A stretch of 64,000 nt of DNA from Paenibacillus sp. FSL H7-0331 (lineage in GTDB: Bacteria; Bacillota; Bacilli; Paenibacillales; NBRC-103111): the NCBI RefSeq assembly GCF_001956045.1, contig NZ_MRTH01000001.1, positions 496,001-560,000 on the forward strand, read 5' to 3'. This document shows positions 14,974 through 30,639 of the stretch, piece by piece (the stretch's first letter is position 1; every line of letters begins with the position of its first letter). A program made the position numbers and the translations under genes. The notes under the pieces are model-generated. The model made no database searches, was not told the DNA's origin, and saw only the letters and a program-made list of their open reading frames with translations.

Positions 14974-15849
14974 TTATACTCTCGCCTTCTCTTCCCGCTC
15001 ATATAAATCCGGCCTGCGGTCATAGAAGGGAGCGACGACGCCATGCTTGCGGTTTTTGTGGAGCTCGGAGAAATCGACTGTCGTATATACGGCCATATTT
15101 TCGTTCAACCGCCCAGACATCAAGATTCCATCATTGGGAAAAGGAACATCGCATGGTGCAAATACTCCCGCCTGACAATGGCCCTCATCGATTTGGGGAC
15201 GACCCACGGGCAAGGAGCCGACGATCCCGCTTAATGCCACGAACAATTGATTTTCAACGGCACGTGCCTGGCAGCAATGCCGGACGCGATGATATCCCGC
15301 CGCAGAATCCGTATAAGAGGGACACAAGATCAGCTCTACGCCTCTGGCTGCAGCAATTCGTGCAATCTCGGGAAATTCGATATCGTAACAGGTTAAGATG
15401 GCTGCTTTGCCCCAACGGGTATGAATGATATTAAGTGAATCGCCGCCTTTCAGCAGCCAGCGGTGCTTTTCCTCAGGGGTAAGATGGAATTTATTTTGCG
15501 TCTCCATCCGGCCATCAGGAAAGAACATAAATGCCGTGTTCACGTACCCGTCTGCTTCCTGACAAATATGGCTGCCAGCCGCAATCACCATACCGGTTTC
15601 TTTACTATGATGCTGAAAGAAATCCCGGTAAACGGTCGTAAAGCTGTCCAAATACCGGCACGCTTCCTCATTATCCATAGCTGGAACGAGCGACAGCAAG
15701 TGCGCTGTTACATATTCTGGAAAAACAACCAACTCCGCCTCCTGCATGGCTGCCTCCTGCAGCTTCTCGGCCAACAGCTCCCAGTAATGCTCGGCAGAAT
15801 GAATGTCGGTCAATCCGTATTGAATCGTAGCAATCTTCAGTGTTGTCAT
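14974..15849 (-). CDS. Nitrilase-superfamily amidohydrolase
   Basis: A 291-residue cytoplasmic carbon-nitrogen hydrolase. The Glu-Lys-Cys triad is visible as Glu45 (VVFPEYV), Lys120 (QNKFHLTPEE) and Cys154 (ILTCYDIEFPE). It should cleave a non-peptide amide or nitrile; the substrate cannot be read from sequence. AAGGAG lies about 10 bases before the ATG. It follows the GNAT-nitrilase fusion by 33 bases on the same strand and resembles its C-terminal part, so the pair probably arose by duplication and is co-expressed. Unlike the fusion, it keeps the nucleophile. Confidence 0.9.
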   Translation of the reverse strand: MTTLKIATIQYGLTDIHSAEHYWELLAEKLQEAAMQEAELVVFPEYVTAHLLSLVPAMDNEEACRYLDSFTTVYRDFFQHHSKETGMVIAAGSHICQEADGYVNTAFMFFPDGRMETQNKFHLTPEEKHRWLLKGGDSLNIIHTRWGKAAILTCYDIEFPEIARIAAARGVELILCPSYTDSAAGYHRVRHCCQARAVENQLFVALSGIVGSLPVGRPQIDEGHCQAGVFAPCDVPFPNDGILMSGRLNENMAVYTTVDFSELHKNRKHGVVAPFYDRRPDLYEREEKARV

Positions 15850-15882: not shown

Positions 15883-17421
15883 TTAGGAACGAATTTGCAG
15901 CGAATAAATATCGGTTCGTCGATCCCCTATCGTCAAAACTTCCTTCGTTTTTCTGTAACGCTGCAGTACCTCCAGATCGATCTCGGCCATAATAACCGTT
16001 TCTGTATTTTCACTGCATTCTGCGGCCACACCGTCACGGGGGAATGAGAAGTCGGATGGTGTATAAATACCGGATTGGGCGTATTGGATATCGATATTTT
16101 CAACATGCGTCAGATTGCCTACTGTGCCTGCGGTCACGACGAACATTTGATTTTCAATCGCTCTCGCCTGGGCACAATATTTGACACGTAAAAAGGTTTG
16201 GCGGTCCTCCGTACAATACGGTACAAAAATAATTTGCGCCCCTTCTTCAGCAACAATGCGTGAAATCTCAGGGTACTCAATATCACTGCTGAGCTGGATC
16301 GAAATTTTACCGCAATCCGTATCGAATACTTCCAACCGATTGCCACCGTTGATTCCCCACCACTTGCGTTCGTTAGGGGAAATATGCAGCTTATACTGCT
16401 GGGCTATCGTCCCGTCGCGGCGAAATAAATGAGCTACATTATAAATACGATTATTTTTCTCTAAAAAATGTGAGCCCCCGATGACATTGACGTTATATTT
16501 CACAGCCAGATCGGAAAAGAGCTCCACATAATTCGGTGTGAATTCGGTCAATTTGCGGACAGCCAAGCTGGGCGAGCGCTCCTCCAGGAAGGATAATAGC
16601 TGCATGGTCACATTTTCCGGAAATACGGCAAAGTCCGATTTATAATCTGAGGCCACATCCACATAATGCTCGCATTGGGTAGCAAACTCCTCAAACGATT
16701 CAATTTTCTTCATCATATATTGAACGACACATACCCGCACGGGAAATGACATTTTGTAATGGATCTTGGAGATTTTCGGTTTATACTCAATGTTGTTCCA
16801 TTCCAGCAGCGTCGCATAGGTCATCGATTCCTGATCATCGGGTAGATAGTTCGTTATGATCCGTTTCAGCGTGAAGCCGTTCATCATCTGGAAGGTCAGC
16901 ACGGGATCATAAATGTTTTGCTGTAATACCTCTTCGGCATATGCTCTCGGCGACATTTTATCGCTATATTTATGATAGAGCGGAATACGTCCACCTACAA
17001 TAATGCTTTTCAGATTCAGCTCCTCGGCCAACCGCTTCCGCGCTTCATACAAACGTCTGCCAATCTTCATACGGCGGTAATCCGGATGGACCATAACCTC
17101 CATGCCGTACAAATTTCCGCCCAATGGATTGTGCGTACGTATGTATCCTTTATCCGTAATTTCCGCATAGGTATGCTGCTCCAAGTATTCATCGAAGTTG
17201 ACGATCAGACTGGAGCACGAACCGATAATAATCCCATCATATTCGACACAGATTTGCCCCTCCGGGAATATACGGATATGGCTTTCCAACTGCTCGATTT
17301 TCCAAGGGAGCATATTCGGAAAACAGACATTTTGCAGCTCGATAATATTTTCAAAGTCGGCACGCACAATATTACGGATAATGATCTTTTTTTCAAATTG
17401 CGAAATATCACCTTTGGTCAT
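15883..17421 (-). CDS. GNAT acetyltransferase-nitrilase fusion, YhcX-like
   Basis: A 512-residue two-domain protein. Residues 15-210 form a GNAT acyltransferase (VHPDYRRMKIGRRLYEAR is the acetyl-CoA loop); residues 228-510 form a nitrilase-type hydrolase. This architecture is that of Bacillus YhcX, which is of similar length and unknown substrate. Glu269 (AVFPENV) and Lys344 (QYKLHISP) of the triad are present, but the cysteine position reads serine (Ser378 in SIQLSSDIEYPE; codons AGC AGT). The ATG at 17419-17421 is preferred over a TTG seven codons upstream because GGAG lies before it. A Pho-box-like promoter precedes it. Confidence 0.88.
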   Translation of the reverse strand: MTKGDISQFEKKIIIRNIVRADFENIIELQNVCFPNMLPWKIEQLESHIRIFPEGQICVEYDGIIIGSCSSLIVNFDEYLEQHTYAEITDKGYIRTHNPLGGNLYGMEVMVHPDYRRMKIGRRLYEARKRLAEELNLKSIIVGGRIPLYHKYSDKMSPRAYAEEVLQQNIYDPVLTFQMMNGFTLKRIITNYLPDDQESMTYATLLEWNNIEYKPKISKIHYKMSFPVRVCVVQYMMKKIESFEEFATQCEHYVDVASDYKSDFAVFPENVTMQLLSFLEERSPSLAVRKLTEFTPNYVELFSDLAVKYNVNVIGGSHFLEKNNRIYNVAHLFRRDGTIAQQYKLHISPNERKWWGINGGNRLEVFDTDCGKISIQLSSDIEYPEISRIVAEEGAQIIFVPYCTEDRQTFLRVKYCAQARAIENQMFVVTAGTVGNLTHVENIDIQYAQSGIYTPSDFSFPRDGVAAECSENTETVIMAEIDLEVLQRYRKTKEVLTIGDRRTDIYSLQIRS

Positions 17422-17456: not shown

Positions 17457-17510
17457 ATTATATATAGGAAGTACTATCTGAATATTTAGTGTGTGTAAAC
17501 GTAATGTAAA
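17457..17510 (-). promoter_or_regulatory. Pho-box-like promoter of the GNAT-nitrilase gene
   Basis: Read on the minus strand, hexamers at an exact 11-base period: TTTACA (17505-17510), TTTACA (17494-17499), TAAATA (17483-17488), ATAGTA (17472-17477), then 9 bases, then a perfect -10 TATAAT (17457-17462). Bacillus PhoP binds TT(A/C/T)A(C/T)A repeats at 11-base spacing directly upstream of the -10. The last repeat is weak. Confidence 0.5.
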
Positions 17511-17541
17511 CAATCAGCTTTTTAGAACAGAGATGTCCTTT

Positions 17542-17595
17542 TTTACAATTTATTTATATTTTCATAACGTTCTCTTTACAATGGCCTCTTATACT
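17542..17595 (+). promoter_or_regulatory. Pho-box-like promoter of the beta-propeller gene
   Basis: Plus-strand hexamers at an exact 11-base period: TTTACA (17542-17547), TTTATA (17553-17558), ATAACG (17564-17569), TTTACA (17575-17580), then 9 bases and the -10 TATACT (17590-17595). Spacing is the same as in the divergent promoter at 17457-17510. Three of four repeats fit the PhoP consensus fully. Confidence 0.6.
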
Positions 17596-19335: not shown

Positions 19336-19539
19336 TTACAACAGTTTGGTCGTTTCGTTCTTGATGGAAGCTTTGTCAGCAGGCTCCTCATCCTCTACGA
19401 TGCTGCGCGTAGAATTCCTGAATTCGCGGAGTGTGTCCCCGAAGGCTCTGCCGAGCTGCGGCAGCTTGGAGGGTCCAAACACGATCAGAGCGATAGCCAG
19501 AATTAACACTAAACCTGAAACACCAATATTGTTGAACAT
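19336..19539 (-). CDS. tatA: Twin-arginine translocase subunit TatA
   Basis: A 67-residue membrane protein with one N-terminal helix (GVSGLVLILAIALIVFG), the hinge FGPSKLPQLGRAFG and an amphipathic helix, the full TatA signature. AAAGGAG precedes the ATG. Together with TatC 87 bases upstream it makes a minimal two-part Tat translocase as in Gram-positive bacteria. It ends the minus-strand unit that also encodes a Tat-dependent dehydrogenase subunit. Confidence 0.95.
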   Translation of the reverse strand: MFNNIGVSGLVLILAIALIVFGPSKLPQLGRAFGDTLREFRNSTRSIVEDEEPADKASIKNETTKLL

Positions 19540-19626
19540 ATGGATTCTCCTTTCTTACCTTGATGATCAGGAGCCAGTCAAATCAAATGAAGACGGCTCC
19601 TATGTATGCCTGTGGTACAGACTTCA

Positions 19627-20355
19627 TTAGCTGTTCGTCGGGGTATGCTGCATGGCCCGCCACTGCCTGCCTGAAACGAATACACTGATTTCAAACAGCA
19701 GGAACAAAGGAACGGTTACCGATAGATGAGAAATCATATCCGGTGGCGAAATGCACGAGCCTACAATGGCCAGGATGATATAGGCATACTTTCGTGTCAT
19801 TTTTAACCGCTCTGGTGTCAGCAGCCCCAATTTGGTTAGAAACATCAGAACCACTGGCATTTCAAAGGCTACCGCCATCGGAAACACAATTTCGTATAAA
19901 AACGAAAAGTAGCGGTCGATTCCATACGTTTCCACAGCGCCAATCGTCAGGTTCATGGTCTTCATGAAATGCAGCATCATCGGGAACACAACCATGTAAC
20001 CAAAGGCAGCCCCAGCTAAAAACAGCACAAACGCCGCAGGAATGTAGGGTAAGGTGCTTCTGGCCTCAGCCTCTGTAAGCCCTGGTCTCACGAACCCCCA
20101 CAACTGATGGAGAATGACAGGCACCGCGAACAGCAGAGCAAACAGCAAAGCACACTTCATATAGATGAGCAGCCCATCCGTAAATGAAAATACGTTCCAT
20201 TCAATCCCGCTCGCTGTTGGCTGCGATTTGATGTAACGTAAAATACTCGGTGACAAGTATAGTCCTACACAGAGTGCGGCAATAAACCATGAACCCACGA
20301 TAATTAACCGCTTCCTGATCTCCGCCAAATGCAGTACCCAGTCCTCCAGTTCCAT
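19627..20355 (-). CDS. tatC: Twin-arginine translocase subunit TatC
   Basis: A 242-residue protein with six membrane segments and the TatC N-terminus LHLAEIRKRLI, plus LLFALLFAVPVILHQLWGFVRPGL and the conserved FAMPVAFEMPVV-like stretch FPMAVAFEMPVVLMF. It recognises twin-arginine signal peptides. It begins 44 bases after the dehydrogenase flavoprotein gene, so the operon is subunit 3, flavoprotein, TatC, TatA. A hairpin (19569-19601) lies in the tatC-tatA gap without a T run. Confidence 0.95.
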   Translation of the reverse strand: MELEDWVLHLAEIRKRLIIVGSWFIAALCVGLYLSPSILRYIKSQPTASGIEWNVFSFTDGLLIYMKCALLFALLFAVPVILHQLWGFVRPGLTEAEARSTLPYIPAAFVLFLAGAAFGYMVVFPMMLHFMKTMNLTIGAVETYGIDRYFSFLYEIVFPMAVAFEMPVVLMFLTKLGLLTPERLKMTRKYAYIILAIVGSCISPPDMISHLSVTVPLFLLFEISVFVSGRQWRAMQHTPTNS

Positions 20356-20399
20356 CCGATCCCCACCCCATTAGAAGCTAGATTGCAGAATCCGTGTAT

Positions 20400-22121
20400 T
20401 CACACCAGAGATCCGCCTTTTTTTATATACTGAGAGACCCCTTCTGCCGCCCGATATGCGAGTGCGCCAACGGTTCCTGTAGGATTATAGCCGCTGTTAT
20501 GCGGAAATGCGCATGCCCCGACAACAAATATATTTTCGTGATCCCACATTTGCAAGTAAGAGTTAACAGCAGAAGTGGATGGGTCAGCTCCCATAATCGC
20601 TCCTCCAGTATTGTGAGTCGATTGATAAGGAACAATGTTGTAAGGCCCCAGCTGATCGGCCGATCCCATCGTCGTCGGTTTCATTTCTTTCATAATTTCG
20701 GCCGCTTTACCTGCGACGAATTTGATCATTTCACGATCCTGATCCTCAAAGTCAAAGGTAACTCGAATCAAGGGCAGTCCGTACGCATCTTTATACGTAG
20801 GGTCCAGATCGAGATAATGATGCTTCCAAGGCATGCTGCTGCCCTGCGGAGATACCGCCAGCACACTATTGGCATATTTGATCGATTGTTTCTTGAATTC
20901 TTTTCCCCACGATGGAGTTCCCTTGGGCACGGAATTGGTTGCTATCGGTCGAAGCCCTGTCTGGGAAATCCGGATTCCTGCTCCATGAATAAAATTGAGA
21001 TTCGTATGATCAAAGTTGTCTCCATTGAAATCAGGAACTTCGATTCCGAGTGATCCGGCCCCTGCATACAAATTGAATTCTCGATCATCAAAGAATCCCG
21101 TAGCTGCTCCCCCGTTTGTTTGATAAGCGTAGTTCTTGCCGATCACCCCTGTACCCGAGACAGGATCATAAGGCTTGCCCAGTTTGGAAGTCAGCAGCAG
21201 ACGAACATTGTTAAACACGTAGCTTGCCATGATCACCACGTCTGCCGGCTGTTCAAATTGCTCCCCGGTAACAGTATTCACATAGACAACTCCAGTTGCC
21301 TTCTTGCCGTCATTCAAAATTTGAATTACATTCGAGTAGGAACGAAGATCCAGATTGCCCGTTTTCTGAGCAACAGGTAGGACTGTCACCACCGGATCCG
21401 CTTTGGCTCCATATTCACAGCCGTATCGTTCACAGTAGCCGCAGTATTGACAGGCAGCCCGAGTGATACCGTCAGGATTCGTGTACTGCTCGGAAAGATT
21501 CGCGGATGGCATCATGTACGGGTGGTAACCGAGCTTCTTTGATGCCTCTTCGAATAATTTGAGCACTGGAGTCCGAATCATCGGCTTGGTTGGAAAAGGA
21601 TTGGTTCTTTTCCCTACAAGCGGATTTTGTTCGGGGTCACCGGATATGCCCGCCATCTTCTCAAATTTATCAAAGTATGGTTCCATTTGATCATAGGTAA
21701 CACCCCAATCCTGGATCGTCATCCCTGCTGGAATTTTGTTTTTTCCATATTTTTCGACGGTTTTACTGTAGATTTCAAAATCATAGGGTAGGAACCGATA
21801 CGTTTGTCCATTCCAGTGAACCCCTGCGCCGCCAAGCCCTTCACTGAGCAGGAAGGAGCCATATTCCCTCATCGGTACGGCTGCAATCTTTTCGGTGTTG
21901 CGAAACGTAATCGTTTCCTTGGATAAATCCTGCATCAGCTCATACCGCTGTGAATAACGCAGCTCATCATGCACCATATAATAATCTTTGGTGCTCCGAG
22001 GCTTCCCGCGCTCCAATCCGACAACCTTTATGCCCTCCTTGGTCAACTCGGCAGCAATGATTCCGCCCAGAAATCCCATGCCCACGATCACTACCGGAAC
22101 CTTTGGCAATACTGTAGCCAT
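20400..22121 (-). CDS. GMC-family FAD dehydrogenase, flavoprotein subunit
   Basis: A 573-residue flavoenzyme like the large subunit of gluconate/2-ketogluconate/sugar dehydrogenases. The FAD-binding motif VVIVGMGFLGG starts at residue 11; a cysteine group Cys224, Cys227, Cys230, Cys235 (ACQYCGYCERYGC) could hold an iron-sulfur cluster as in FAD-glucose dehydrogenases; the GMC C-terminus shows STHNTGGAIMG, with the likely catalytic histidine, and GYNPTGTVGAL. It has no signal peptide, so it is probably carried out with the Tat-tagged subunit encoded 45 bases upstream and passes electrons to the cytochrome c at 23093. The substrate is unknown but likely a sugar or sugar acid. Confidence 0.9.
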   Translation of the reverse strand: MATVLPKVPVVIVGMGFLGGIIAAELTKEGIKVVGLERGKPRSTKDYYMVHDELRYSQRYELMQDLSKETITFRNTEKIAAVPMREYGSFLLSEGLGGAGVHWNGQTYRFLPYDFEIYSKTVEKYGKNKIPAGMTIQDWGVTYDQMEPYFDKFEKMAGISGDPEQNPLVGKRTNPFPTKPMIRTPVLKLFEEASKKLGYHPYMMPSANLSEQYTNPDGITRAACQYCGYCERYGCEYGAKADPVVTVLPVAQKTGNLDLRSYSNVIQILNDGKKATGVVYVNTVTGEQFEQPADVVIMASYVFNNVRLLLTSKLGKPYDPVSGTGVIGKNYAYQTNGGAATGFFDDREFNLYAGAGSLGIEVPDFNGDNFDHTNLNFIHGAGIRISQTGLRPIATNSVPKGTPSWGKEFKKQSIKYANSVLAVSPQGSSMPWKHHYLDLDPTYKDAYGLPLIRVTFDFEDQDREMIKFVAGKAAEIMKEMKPTTMGSADQLGPYNIVPYQSTHNTGGAIMGADPSTSAVNSYLQMWDHENIFVVGACAFPHNSGYNPTGTVGALAYRAAEGVSQYIKKGGSLV

Positions 22122-22166
22122 TTATTTTCCTCGCTTTCTTGTATGGTTGTCTGCTCTGCTATTGAT

Positions 22167-22940
22167 TTAATGGGTAACAAAATGATTACGTAGACTTCTC
22201 GGCTCCATCAAGACAAATTGTTCCTTGTCCATAATTTGGGTGTAGCTCATTTGATTGCCTGGATATTTGCGCATTTTCCAACCAAGCATATTTTTGTTGC
22301 CGCCGTATAGCGGATCCGAATAAGCTCCTTCTATCGTTAAAGTGCGCAGCATGTTGAAAAAGGTTTTGCCCGTGACCCCATTTACAACCATGATTTCGCC
22401 CTTTTCCATCATCGTGAGAATGGCGATCTTCTCCTCCTCGGCCAGATCAACAAAACCTTTTGAATATTTTTTCTGGCTGGCATCCTCCAAGGATTGCAGC
22501 CCCATCGTAAACAGCTCATTACGTCGAATGCTTTGATAATCGCCCTGAGTCACTTCCCCCTTAACAAAAGGGCCCGTCCGATATTCGCGGGCGTTCACGC
22601 CCCAGCGGCTGGACATCTGATGATCTATGTAGAAGGCAACACCCAGTTCTGTAGCTCCCGGACCTAGCTCATCCTTTGGAAAAATACATTCTGCTGCTGC
22701 TTCCGTCAGCTGAAGCTGAGTCTGATCAAAAAACATCGGAGCCTGATTGTAATCAATCGTTGAGGCTTCAGTGCCAGGTGCGGGTGCTGGGGCAGGAGTC
22801 TCTGAAGGTTTGGTAAATCCGCCGGTGAGCGCTTTGGTAAGCACTCCACCCACAACCACCCCACCGATAGCGGCACCGGAATATTTCAAAAAACGACGTC
22901 GTGAATCGTTTGATGGACGTTCTATATCCTTTTCTTCCAT
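22167..22940 (-). CDS. Gluconate 2-dehydrogenase subunit 3-family protein, Tat signal
   Basis: A 257-residue small subunit. The N-terminus contains SRRRFLK (residues 13-19), a perfect twin-arginine motif, then a hydrophobic stretch AAIGGVVVGGVL and a Pro/Ala linker. The rest matches the gluconate dehydrogenase subunit 3 family, which chaperones the flavoprotein across the membrane. The ATG at 22938-22940 has AAGGAG upstream; an ATG 13 codons earlier lacks one. It heads the operon with the flavoprotein and tatC/tatA, so cargo and exporter are made together. Confidence 0.9.
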   Translation of the reverse strand: MEEKDIERPSNDSRRRFLKYSGAAIGGVVVGGVLTKALTGGFTKPSETPAPAPAPGTEASTIDYNQAPMFFDQTQLQLTEAAAECIFPKDELGPGATELGVAFYIDHQMSSRWGVNAREYRTGPFVKGEVTQGDYQSIRRNELFTMGLQSLEDASQKKYSKGFVDLAEEEKIAILTMMEKGEIMVVNGVTGKTFFNMLRTLTIEGAYSDPLYGGNKNMLGWKMRKYPGNQMSYTQIMDKEQFVLMEPRSLRNHFVTH

Positions 22941-23092
22941 GATACCAATCTCCTTTTGATTTGGATTATTGAGCTTCATTTTGTAATAAATGGACGTTGC
23001 GTATATTTTGATCTCCGGACGGACATTTTATGCAAACAAACTGTTTTTCACAAAATAGCTGAAGTAAGAACCAACAATAAGGAGGAATACCC

Positions 23093-23464
23093 ATGAACAA
23101 ATCACTTGTCTGTGTTACCCTGCTGCTTTCCATTTCGCTATCTGCCTGTGGATCCAAGAGCTCTGCACCACCAAGTACTCCAACTCCACCAGCAGCCAAT
23201 CAGGGAGCTGGATCAACTACTGGCGGCGGCACCTCCACCACGGTTGATGCTAGTGCCATTTATAAGCAAAACTGTGTAAGCTGTCACGGTAATGCTCTGG
23301 AGGGGGCCGTTGGACCCAGCTTGCAAAAGGTCGGCGCCAAATACTCCAAGGACCAGCTTGCCACGATATTGAATAACGGAAAAGGGGCTATGCCCAGCTT
23401 TAAAGGCAAGCTTACGGATACTGAAATCGGTGCGATTGCGACCTGGCTGGCCGATAAAAAATAG
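23093..23464 (+). CDS. Lipid-anchored cytochrome c551-type electron carrier
   Basis: A 123-residue lipoprotein: signal peptide with Cys19 in LSISLSAC, a Pro/Gly/Thr-rich spacer (20-52), and a small class I cytochrome c domain with heme motif Cys61-x-x-Cys64-His65 and a likely methionine ligand Met100 in GAMPSF. AAGGAGG precedes the ATG. It is divergent from the dehydrogenase operon and is the natural electron acceptor of that complex on the outer face of the membrane, linking sugar oxidation to the respiratory chain. Confidence 0.93.
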   Translation: MNKSLVCVTLLLSISLSACGSKSSAPPSTPTPPAANQGAGSTTGGGTSTTVDASAIYKQNCVSCHGNALEGAVGPSLQKVGAKYSKDQLATILNNGKGAMPSFKGKLTDTEIGAIATWLADKK

Positions 23465-27646: not shown

Positions 27647-28237
27647 ATGTTAGTAGAAACCAAGTCACAGGTACATGAAAAGCTATTGTTCTTATATAAA
27701 TTTGTATGCTCACCCGGACAAATCGGAAGTGTAACGCCAAGCTCCCGTTATTTGGCCAATAAAATGGTCTGCTCCGTTCCGTGGGATCAGATAAGCAGCA
27801 TCGCTGAGCTTGGTGCGGGTACAGGGGCCATTACGAAGCACATTCAGGCTGTCAGACAAGCAAATACAAAGGTACTGCTATTCGAAAAAGATCCGTATCT
27901 GCAGCAAGCACTGGAACGCCATTATCCGCAATTTGCTTGTTATTCCGATGGCCGTGACTTGTCGTTTGCGATGCGTCAGGAGTCCATCGAGCAGCTGGAT
28001 GCAATCATATCCGGCCTGCCTTTTTTCAACTTTCCTCAAGCTATCAGGGATCAGCTGATGAACCAGATTGTCGCGTCACTGAAGACAGGGGGACTGTTTA
28101 TCGCTTTTCAATACTCCTTGCAGATGAAATCACAGCTAAGTGAGTATTTTGATATCGAAGCTGTCCATTGGGTTCCCTTGAACCTGCCTCCGGCCTTCGT
28201 TTATGTGTGCCGCAAAAAAGGAGCTCGACAGTCATGA
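27647..28237 (+). CDS. SAM-dependent methyltransferase, phospholipid N-methyltransferase-like
   Basis: A 196-residue enzyme of the class I methyltransferase fold. Residues 20-40 (FVCSPGQIGSVTPSSRYLAN) and the SAM motif IAELGAGTGAITK match proteins often annotated as phospholipid N-methyltransferase or rRNA adenine methyltransferase; the SGLPFFNFP motif replaces the usual NPPY. AGGAGG precedes the ATG. The stop overlaps the DedA start by 4 bases, so a membrane-lipid role fits the context better than rRNA modification. Confidence 0.85.
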   Translation: MLVETKSQVHEKLLFLYKFVCSPGQIGSVTPSSRYLANKMVCSVPWDQISSIAELGAGTGAITKHIQAVRQANTKVLLFEKDPYLQQALERHYPQFACYSDGRDLSFAMRQESIEQLDAIISGLPFFNFPQAIRDQLMNQIVASLKTGGLFIAFQYSLQMKSQLSEYFDIEAVHWVPLNLPPAFVYVCRKKGARQS

Positions 28238-28836
28238 ACTATGACACACTCGTATCCATGATTGAACATTATGGTTATGCAGCCTTGTTTTTTTCTTTAT
28301 GGCTCGGGATTGTCGGTATGCCGATTCCTGACGAGGTGGTTGTGATGACTGGCGGGGCGGTTACGGGAAGTGGAATTCTGCAAGTGATTCCCGCTTTTGT
28401 GCTTACGTATTTAGGCGTCATATCCGGGTTATCCTTAGGTTATATACTGGGTCGATATGTGGGCACACCGGTTCTGGATAAACTGCGGCGCAAACCAAGG
28501 ATGAATAAATGGATCGGCTTTTCGGAGCGATTAATCGTCAAGTATGGAAACTTCGCACTATGTATCAGCTATTTGCTTCCCGTAGTCCGGCACATCATGC
28601 CGTATCTGGTCGGGATCAATAAAATGAGTTTTAGACGTTATGCGCTGCTGTCCTATTCGTCCGGTCTTGTATGGACATTGATTTTTTTTACCGTGGGGCG
28701 CTTTGTTGGAAATCATGTGCAGGATGTCGGGGTTCTGGTTTATAATTACGGTATCCGGCTGTTAGGACTGCTGGGGTTGTGTATCGTTATTATCATTATC
28801 ATACGGTTAGTTCGAAGGAGAGATCCGGCTCGATGA
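28234..28836 (+). CDS. DedA-family membrane protein
   Basis: A 200-residue integral membrane protein. It shows the DedA features GMPIPDEVVVMTGGAV and the C-terminal signature SERLIVKYGNFALCISYLLPVVRH with the conserved Gly/Arg loop, and four to five membrane segments. DedA proteins flip undecaprenyl phosphate or phosphatidylethanolamine and protect against cationic peptides. The ATG overlaps the previous stop (ATGA), and the next gene again overlaps by 4 bases, a tightly coupled operon. Confidence 0.92.
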   Translation: MNYDTLVSMIEHYGYAALFFSLWLGIVGMPIPDEVVVMTGGAVTGSGILQVIPAFVLTYLGVISGLSLGYILGRYVGTPVLDKLRRKPRMNKWIGFSERLIVKYGNFALCISYLLPVVRHIMPYLVGINKMSFRRYALLSYSSGLVWTLIFFTVGRFVGNHVQDVGVLVYNYGIRLLGLLGLCIVIIIIIRLVRRRDPAR

Positions 28837-29528
28837 GTGTCACTATATTAGTTGCTGATGATGATCGGGATATTCGCGATGTCATCCACATTTATCTGCG
28901 CAATGAGGGGTACCAGGTTCTGGAAGCGGAGAATGGGAGTCAAGCTTTGACGATGGTTCAGCAGCATAAGATCGATTTGATCATATTGGATGTCATGATG
29001 CCGCTTCTCGATGGAATTACAGCTTGTCTCAAAATCCGTGAGGTATCCCATGTTCCCATTATTATGCTTTCCGCCAAGGAGGAGTATCTGGATAAAATCA
29101 CCGGTCTCTCTACCGGGGCCGATGATTATGTGACCAAACCGTTCAACTCTCTGGAATTAATCGCAAGGGTGAAAGCCCAGCTGAGAAGACAGAACTTCAC
29201 CGTTCATCCACAAGCCCAGAGCAGCTCCGAAATTGTTATTGATGAATTGGTTATAAGCAAAGATCATCACAGGACAACCGTACGCGGTCAAGTGATCTCA
29301 TTAACACCCATTGAATTTTCCATCCTTGAGCTGCTTGCCACTCACCAAGGCCAAGTGTTCAGTATCGATAAAATTTATCAGAGCGTGTGGAAGGAACAAA
29401 ATGAATTTTATTCCGAAAATACAGTTATGGTCCATATCCGAAATATTCGCGAGAAAATAGAAATCAATGCAAGAGAGCCGCAATATATTAAAACCGTTTG
29501 GGGAGTGGGATATAAAATTGACAAATAA
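28833..29528 (+). CDS. OmpR-family response regulator, VanR-like
   Basis: A 231-residue regulator: receiver with Asp9/Asp10/Asp11 in VADDDRD, phospho-acceptor Asp53 (LIILDVMMP) and Lys102 (YVTKPF), then a winged-helix output domain (LTPIEFSILELL ... ENTVMVHIRNIREKIE). The ATG overlaps the DedA stop and AAGGAG lies about 12 bases upstream; codons before it belong to DedA. Its partner is the kinase that follows. Confidence 0.93.
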   Translation: MSVTILVADDDRDIRDVIHIYLRNEGYQVLEAENGSQALTMVQQHKIDLIILDVMMPLLDGITACLKIREVSHVPIIMLSAKEEYLDKITGLSTGADDYVTKPFNSLELIARVKAQLRRQNFTVHPQAQSSSEIVIDELVISKDHHRTTVRGQVISLTPIEFSILELLATHQGQVFSIDKIYQSVWKEQNEFYSENTVMVHIRNIREKIEINAREPQYIKTVWGVGYKIDK

Positions 29529-30639
29529 GCTATGGTCTCTCTTAAGCGGTAAAAAAAACATTCGAGGCCATATCCTTTGGGTGGTCATCCTGAGCTGGAT
29601 TCTCGCAATGTTCATGACGATAGTATCTGATAATTTAGCCCTCCTCCTGCCTCCCTGGGCTGAATCCCTATCAAAACTTTTTAACTTGATCATGCTGATA
29701 GCCTGCTTTATTGTGTTCTTTTTTGTATTTACCCACCCTATCGTGCGTTACTTCAAAGCATTGACCGATGGATTACAATCGATCGCAAGCGGAGACTTAA
29801 GTTATCGGCTCCCCTTGTCCCGGCATGATGAGCTGGGGATTGTGGCTCACAATATTAATCAGATGGCAGAACGCTTGCAGATCCAGCAGGAACGGGAACG
29901 ACAGCTGGAGAAGTCGAAAATGGAGCTGATTACGTATGTATCCCACGATTTACGCACTCCGCTCACCAGTATCATTGGCTATCTCGATTTGCTTAAATCG
30001 CATACCTATCAGGATGTGACTGAACAGGAGCGTTATATTGACAACGCATTTAATAAAACCCAGCAGCTCAAAAAACTGATTGATGATCTGTTTGAGTATA
30101 CGAGACTTACCGACGGTCATATTCAATTAGCGGTTCAGCAGGTTGATATGAACAGTTTACTGGAGCAAATGATCACTGAATTTGAGCCCGTTGCCAAGGA
30201 GCAGGGAATCACCATACATACAGATTTATTGCCCGCACCCGTGATGATGGATCTGGATATCGAAAAGATCGTCAGAGCTATTGATAATTTACTCATGAAT
30301 GCCATGAAATTTTCGGACAGACCCGGAACCATACAGGTTTCACTTGACGTGGGCTTAGCCTTTGTTACCCTAAGCATTGAGAACAACGGGATCCCCATCA
30401 CTCCTGAACAGGAAGAACAGCTATTTGAACGATTTTACAAAATTGAGCCGTCCCGTTATGATAACCAAATGCCTTCCGGGTCCGGCCTCGGATTGTCCAT
30501 TGCGAAGCATATTGTTGAGCTGCATGGGGGACGTATCGGGCTTGAACACAGGAACGGTCACTACCGTTTTTTTATGGACCTGATGATTTCTGCTGCGGAT
30601 CGGATTCCTTCGCAGTCCGACAGAAGCGATCTGCAATAG
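29518..30639 (+). CDS. Sensor histidine kinase, VanS-like
   Basis: A 373-residue kinase from a TTG at 29518, which overlaps the regulator stop and is preceded by GGGAGTGGG; an ATG 17 codons earlier is possible but lies deep in the regulator. Two membrane helices (about 18-38 and 52-72) leave only a very short outside loop, so it probably senses within the membrane. HAMP 74-125, phospho-acceptor His143 in YVSHDLRTPLTS, then ATPase boxes (DNLLMNAMKFS, GLGLSIAKHIVELHGG). With the methyltransferase and DedA it looks like an envelope-stress response operon. Confidence 0.9.
   Translation: MTNKLWSLLSGKKNIRGHILWVVILSWILAMFMTIVSDNLALLLPPWAESLSKLFNLIMLIACFIVFFFVFTHPIVRYFKALTDGLQSIASGDLSYRLPLSRHDELGIVAHNINQMAERLQIQQERERQLEKSKMELITYVSHDLRTPLTSIIGYLDLLKSHTYQDVTEQERYIDNAFNKTQQLKKLIDDLFEYTRLTDGHIQLAVQQVDMNSLLEQMITEFEPVAKEQGITIHTDLLPAPVMMDLDIEKIVRAIDNLLMNAMKFSDRPGTIQVSLDVGLAFVTLSIENNGIPITPEQEEQLFERFYKIEPSRYDNQMPSGSGLGLSIAKHIVELHGGRIGLEHRNGHYRFFMDLMISAADRIPSQSDRSDLQ

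Follow-up and report, generated by a model that had tools for sequence, protein, structure and literature searches.

What controls the 190-base, AT-rich gap between two divergent genes of Paenibacillus sp. FSL H7-0331, one encoding a propeller protein and the other a fusion of a GNAT domain with a carbon–nitrogen hydrolase? We examined the gap within a window of 64,000 nucleotides, the whole stretch of DNA analysed, and conclude from its sequence that it very probably holds two separate promoters of the PhoP-activated type, placed back to back (Table 1). For either strand, the initial annotation had described hexamers repeated four times with an 11-base period and separated by 9 bases from a -10 box; this description proved exact, with every coordinate right. 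In both elements the hexamers are tandem and TT(A/T/C)ACA-like with spacers of 5 ± 2 bases, the arrangement by which a Pho box is recognized; three of the eight (ATAACG on the plus strand, TAAATA and ATAGTA on the minus strand) are loose matches to TTWACA. Single TT[ATC]ACA words number 108 in the window, counting both strands, and the exact pair TT[ATC]ACA-N5-TT[ATC]ACA occurs once, at 17510 on the minus strand, against 0.09 expected from the density of single words. Among the four promoter-like sites found, none placed a canonical -35 element at 16–18 bases from TATACT (17590) or TATAAT (17462).

Table 1. Genes and predicted promoter elements of the locus, in coordinates of the window.
Feature	Position	Strand	Description or evidence
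Second nitrilase-family gene	14974..15849	-	33 bases past fusion gene
GNAT + carbon-nitrogen hydrolase fusion gene	15883..17421	-	Domain matches, orthologues
Predicted Pho-type promoter, GNAT-nitrilase gene	17457..17510	-	Matrix rank 2, profile E 0.007, conservation
Hexamers of minus element (start positions)	TTTACA 17510, TTTACA 17499, TAAATA 17488, ATAGTA 17477 (ends 17472)	-	
-10 box of minus element, TATAAT	17462-17457	-	9 bases after last hexamer
Predicted Pho-type promoter, propeller gene	17542..17595	+	Matrix rank 1 in window, profile E 0.00048, conservation
Hexamers of plus element (start positions)	TTTACA 17542, TTTATA 17553, ATAACG 17564, TTTACA 17575	+	
-10 box of plus element, TATACT	17590-17595	+	9 bases after last hexamer
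Propeller gene, 520 aa	17633..19195	+	Cu_amine_oxidN1 domain, choice-of-anchor I beta-propeller; probable signal peptide (by eye)
Third Pho-type site by matrix	27557-27504	-	20.3 bits, third best in window

The propeller protein is 96% identical to its counterpart in P. periandrae and the GNAT-nitrilase 99%. The former matched Pfam PF22494 at 58.4 bits (cut-off 32) and NCBIfam NF038117 at 184.4 bits, under the cut-off of 300. Its predicted structure was confident (mean pLDDT 86.5), and the 50 structural matches shown were mostly WDR5 chains, with others of mixed kinds, at 10–14% identity; the structure was examined for a clue to catalysis, and no activity is proposed, as these matches are to general propellers only. 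In the fusion, PF00583 (GNAT) and PF00795 (CN-hydrolase) both scored above their cut-offs on a single chain, presumably the kind named YhcX in Bacillus, which we recognize here by domain make-up. The fusion reading frame as listed starts at TTG 17442, while ATG 17421 has GGAG upstream; the ATG is the likelier start because, given the -10 box at 17457, the TTG would lie only about 8 bases from the expected transcription start. A second nitrilase gene follows and is kept beside the fusion in three relatives (G001, G002, and G017), and this conserved adjacency together with the 33-base distance makes it plausible that the two genes probably share one transcript. Beyond the propeller gene, at 19340-23464, a tatA-like gene (by eye) and tatC adjoin genes for a GMC oxidoreductase, a cytochrome c, and a Gluconate_2-dh3 subunit bearing a twin-arginine signal, an arrangement suggestive of a dehydrogenase that is exported by the Tat pathway through a dedicated translocase.

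Pho promoters of B. subtilis carry four repeats near -20 to -60. In the part of PMC3036859 concerned with these promoters, phosphorylated PhoP is described as binding TT(A/T/C)ACA direct repeats with 5 ± 2 base spacers and as either inducing or repressing transcription. The tandem hexamers of that sequence on the coding strand, beside a -10 box, are found here as well, whereas the host is a Paenibacillus and several of the hexamers are degenerate. By this likeness we infer that PhoP is the binding protein, that it activates rather than represses, and that both genes are induced at low phosphate. When phosphate runs short, phosphorylated PhoP would bind the four 11-base repeats on the same side of the helix, immediately ahead of the -10 box, and would there replace the absent -35 element and recruit RNA polymerase. 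One promoter would then yield the propeller transcript, and the other that of the GNAT-nitrilase fusion, probably with the second nitrilase.

For comparison, the layout was placed upstream of pstS and of the PhoP-type regulator gene in 14 Paenibacillus-group genomes, with pstS represented by the 15 of 34 family matches that exceeded the cut-off. When gaps of 8 and 10 were also allowed, a gap of 9 with 11-base steps scored best at all 15 pstS loci, which supports the early reading of this arrangement, gap included, as that of PhoP-activated promoters. Paenibacillus pst promoters (pstS and pstC, both of which have such elements in G001) are like both of our elements in their four-by-eleven layout and 9-base gap. 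The third box is often weak at pstS, and the -10 box there is TAAGAT at 6/15 loci, whereas it is TATACT or TATAAT here. At the regulator gene, 7/14 genomes had a site containing two or more full boxes; the other seven, which include the nearest relatives G001, G002, and G017, had no two-full-box site at that promoter.

A matrix was then built from 22 pstS and regulator-gene sites of other Paenibacillus genomes, with an effective number of 10. Scanned over about 127,900 placements in the window, it ranked the two proposed elements first and second (plus 28.1 bits, minus 22.3 bits), although it is not wholly independent of the proposal, its training sites having first been placed with TTWACA and TATAAT, the initial annotation's own words. 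First-order Markov shuffles of the intergenic region reached neither element in 5000 trials, with a best shuffle score of 22.2, just below that of the minus element. A second profile was made from 15 promoters, 13 of them common to the matrix, after three rows of its training set were thinned and L109 was dropped for an out-of-register alignment. At E up to 10 it returned exactly two matches in the window, the plus and the minus element, the latter matched over positions 1–33 only.

Searches of relatives extended the comparison to whole genomes. A search pattern combining two boxes with the gap and the -10 box gave 26 matches in eight genomes versus 11 for a backwards control, which matched in 6/8 genomes. 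Eleven of the 26 lay before the regulator gene (five, in five genomes), pstB (two), a HAD hydrolase gene (one), metallophosphoesterase genes (two), and the propeller gene of G002 (one); no phosphate link was seen for the other 15. Run over G001, G002, and G017 with E up to 10, the promoter profile yielded 61 matches, and 14 of its 30 best loci precede phosphate-linked genes: pstS (three), pstC (two, one by position only), ppk (two, the second assigned from its visual resemblance to the first), single genes for a 5'-nucleotidase, an alkaline phosphatase, a PAP2 phosphatase, and a purple acid phosphatase-like protein, and genes for two PhnF-like regulators and a UgpA-like permease, these last three being under their curated cut-offs. 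Three of these 14 (two pstS and one pstC) belong to the training set, and the 54-base layout, having picked phosphate genes beyond that set, is usable as a search profile. The fusion was the last of the 30 best loci; the remainder included an MsbA-like exporter, found in each of the three genomes, and genes without a phosphate link. Genome-wide, each site alone is weak: of the 27 matches that G001 yielded with E up to 10, the fusion site had E 1.22 and the propeller site E 2.16; G002 listed the propeller site (E 1.23) and not the fusion site, and the fusion site was likewise not listed for G017. The Pho-type element upstream of the MsbA-like ABC exporter was scanned at L190 (G017) and appears alike by eye at L195 (G001) and L206 (G002).

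The regulator of these genomes was named PhoP on the strength of homology and gene neighbourhood; against it, the curated PhoB/PhoP models all stayed below their cut-offs. Its best full-length match was RegX3 of M. tuberculosis, which we take to be a phosphate regulator. It is improbable that WalR (YycF), or another OmpR-family regulator reading direct repeats of 11 bases, serves these promoters, alone or beside PhoP. The WalR consensus is TGTWAH-N5-TGTWAH, and the distal pair of the minus promoter, read on the plus strand as TGTAAA-N5-TGTAAA at 17494, fits it; however, the window contains no second match of this kind, and the plus promoter is without one even though the layout is common to both. 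The regulator scores slightly higher on the YycF model than on the PhoB model (212 versus 206 bits, both under cut-off), whereas its receiver domain is a little nearer to B. subtilis PhoP than to YycF (111 versus 103 bits). Further against WalR, the layout recurs at phosphate genes: at pstS in 15/15 loci, and also upstream of ppk, of phosphatase genes, and of PhnF-like genes. In G008 (locus L177), moreover, the regulator/kinase pair sits beside pstB and phoU, in the order kinase, regulator, chemotaxis-receptor-like gene, pstB, phoU, with element scores of 25.2 bits at the regulator, 13.9 (weak) at the receptor-like gene, and 37.2 at pstB. WalR as the main regulator is therefore disfavoured by the lack of TGTWAH-N5-TGTWAH in the plus promoter and by the receiver domain, and PhoP remains the preferred candidate. 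The receptor-like gene of G008 (L177 3686-4939, minus strand), between regulator and pstB, encodes a chemotaxis-receptor signalling domain and has a CBS match. The kinase gene precedes the PhoP-type regulator gene at L177, L109, and L116, the reverse of the order in Bacillus, where phoP is followed by phoR.

Conservation was judged against a cut-off of 12.3, the 99% point of 2000 shuffles, whose maximum was 19.4. On the propeller side, the matrix placed 15 of 22 Paenibacillus loci above this value and 7 below, and by eye the element is in register at 20 of the 22 (19 placed first and L020 on a second look); L016 is one base short ahead of the third box, and L003 had no in-register placement. 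On the fusion side, 17 of 104 family genomes held 23 matches, and the upstream region was examined for 21, two being without an N terminus. Ten of the 21 exceeded the cut-off by matrix, with L132 also recognized by eye, and 11 fell below it by matrix; second fusion copies in G048 and G055 carry no element. On a tree of 29 fusion proteins, presence of the element (11 rows) needs 3 changes, compared with a mean of 9.1 for shuffled labels, and 1 of 500 shuffles was as low. The hexamer and spacer columns were compared at placed loci, leaving out L003, L016, and L020 on the propeller side and 10 of 21 fusion loci. Hexamers carried 1.20 bits versus 0.62 for spacers in the 20 propeller promoters, where 15 of 20,000 random column choices were as high, and 1.40 versus 0.52 bits in the 12 nitrilase promoters, where none of 20,000 was. 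The initial annotation had named loss of the 11-base periodicity in close relatives as one of the findings that would tell against it; both elements keep that periodicity in relatives. Since each element is also kept where the other gene is not a neighbour, they appear to be two separate promoters in evolution: the fusion lies within 6 kb upstream of the propeller gene at just 2/22 loci (L001 and L002), and in G017 (L180) the fusion promoter retains its element even though the stretch from the fusion to the tat genes is free of a propeller gene.

These comparisons also bear on whether both promoters belong to the Pho type. It could be that only the propeller-side promoter works in this way, the other being a plain AT-rich promoter with little or no binding at its boxes. 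The departure of minus boxes 3 and 4 from TTWACA would fit this, as would the partial profile match of the minus element and its restricted distribution. The YhcX-type GNAT-nitrilases of Bacilli join GNAT and CN-hydrolase in one chain, like the fusion here, and a draw of the class yielded 76 fusion matches in 74 of 398 genomes (63 of the 76 at 56–68% identity). None of 29 further loci from this draw, in which families were not separated and at least one genome (G008, locus L149) is a Paenibacillus, exceeded 12.3, the highest reaching 10.3, whereas 10 of 21 loci in the Paenibacillus family did (11 with L132). We nevertheless consider a single working Pho promoter very unlikely: the excess of hexamer over spacer conservation is clearer in the 12 fusion promoters than on the propeller side, the fusion element is kept beside a different upstream neighbour in G017, and a weak third box is frequent at pstS promoters too. 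That chance alone produced both elements, in an intergenic region rich in A and T with some TTTACA words and in a window where single words are common, is extremely improbable. Chance, which the initial annotation had called unlikely, is disfavoured by the shuffles, by the register conserved in relatives, and by the many phosphate genes that the same profile finds.

Two Pho-type promoters thus remain the preferred reading, and it is the membership rather than the mechanism, which is already known, that is new: the propeller and fusion genes are well-supported predicted additions to the Pho genes, and to our knowledge neither is among those of B. subtilis. The predicted phosphate-starvation response of Paenibacillus would thereby gain a nitrilase fusion and a propeller that is probably secreted, and this regulon context offers a clue to function by telling under which growth condition a phenotype should be sought. 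We found no account of Pho boxes at a propeller or YhcX/nitrilase gene in the open-licence library searched, nor any paper on choice-of-anchor I. In the portion of PMC4558970 on auxin production, deletion of yhcX lowers indole-3-acetic acid by 24% in B. amyloliquefaciens SQR9, and a level of 50% of wild type is cited for FZB42. An excerpt of a study of bone-char phosphate fertiliser has yhcX up in B. velezensis, which is no more than suggestive (PMC12676729); parts of PMC7793946 and PMC4415409 give background to the topic. The effect of the deletion and the rise in the fertiliser study make a link between phosphate and auxin thinkable, though not likely. It seems unlikely, too, that one Paenibacillus clade has recruited to its PhoP response a GNAT-nitrilase of the type linked with indole-3-acetic acid production in plant-associated Bacillus, along with a secreted propeller for phosphate capture at the cell surface. 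If it had, starved cells would make auxin when roots are also short of phosphate, or the product might instead be an amide released from an acylated phosphorus compound.

A third Pho-type site was detected by matrix elsewhere in the window (Table 1), and was not found there by the promoter profile at E up to 10. It lies 38 bases ahead of a transporter operon (27465-23560, minus strand) encoding a binding protein, a fused permease, and an ATPase, which resemble 2-aminoethylphosphonate uptake proteins below curated cut-offs. The site is absent from the stretch of G002 examined, which has other genes, and is kept in G001 and G017, ranking first in the stretch of each. On the plus strand, at 27647-30639, we observed genes for a phospholipid/ornithine-lipid methyltransferase-like protein, a DedA-family protein, and a VanR-like regulator, followed by a kinase-like open reading frame.
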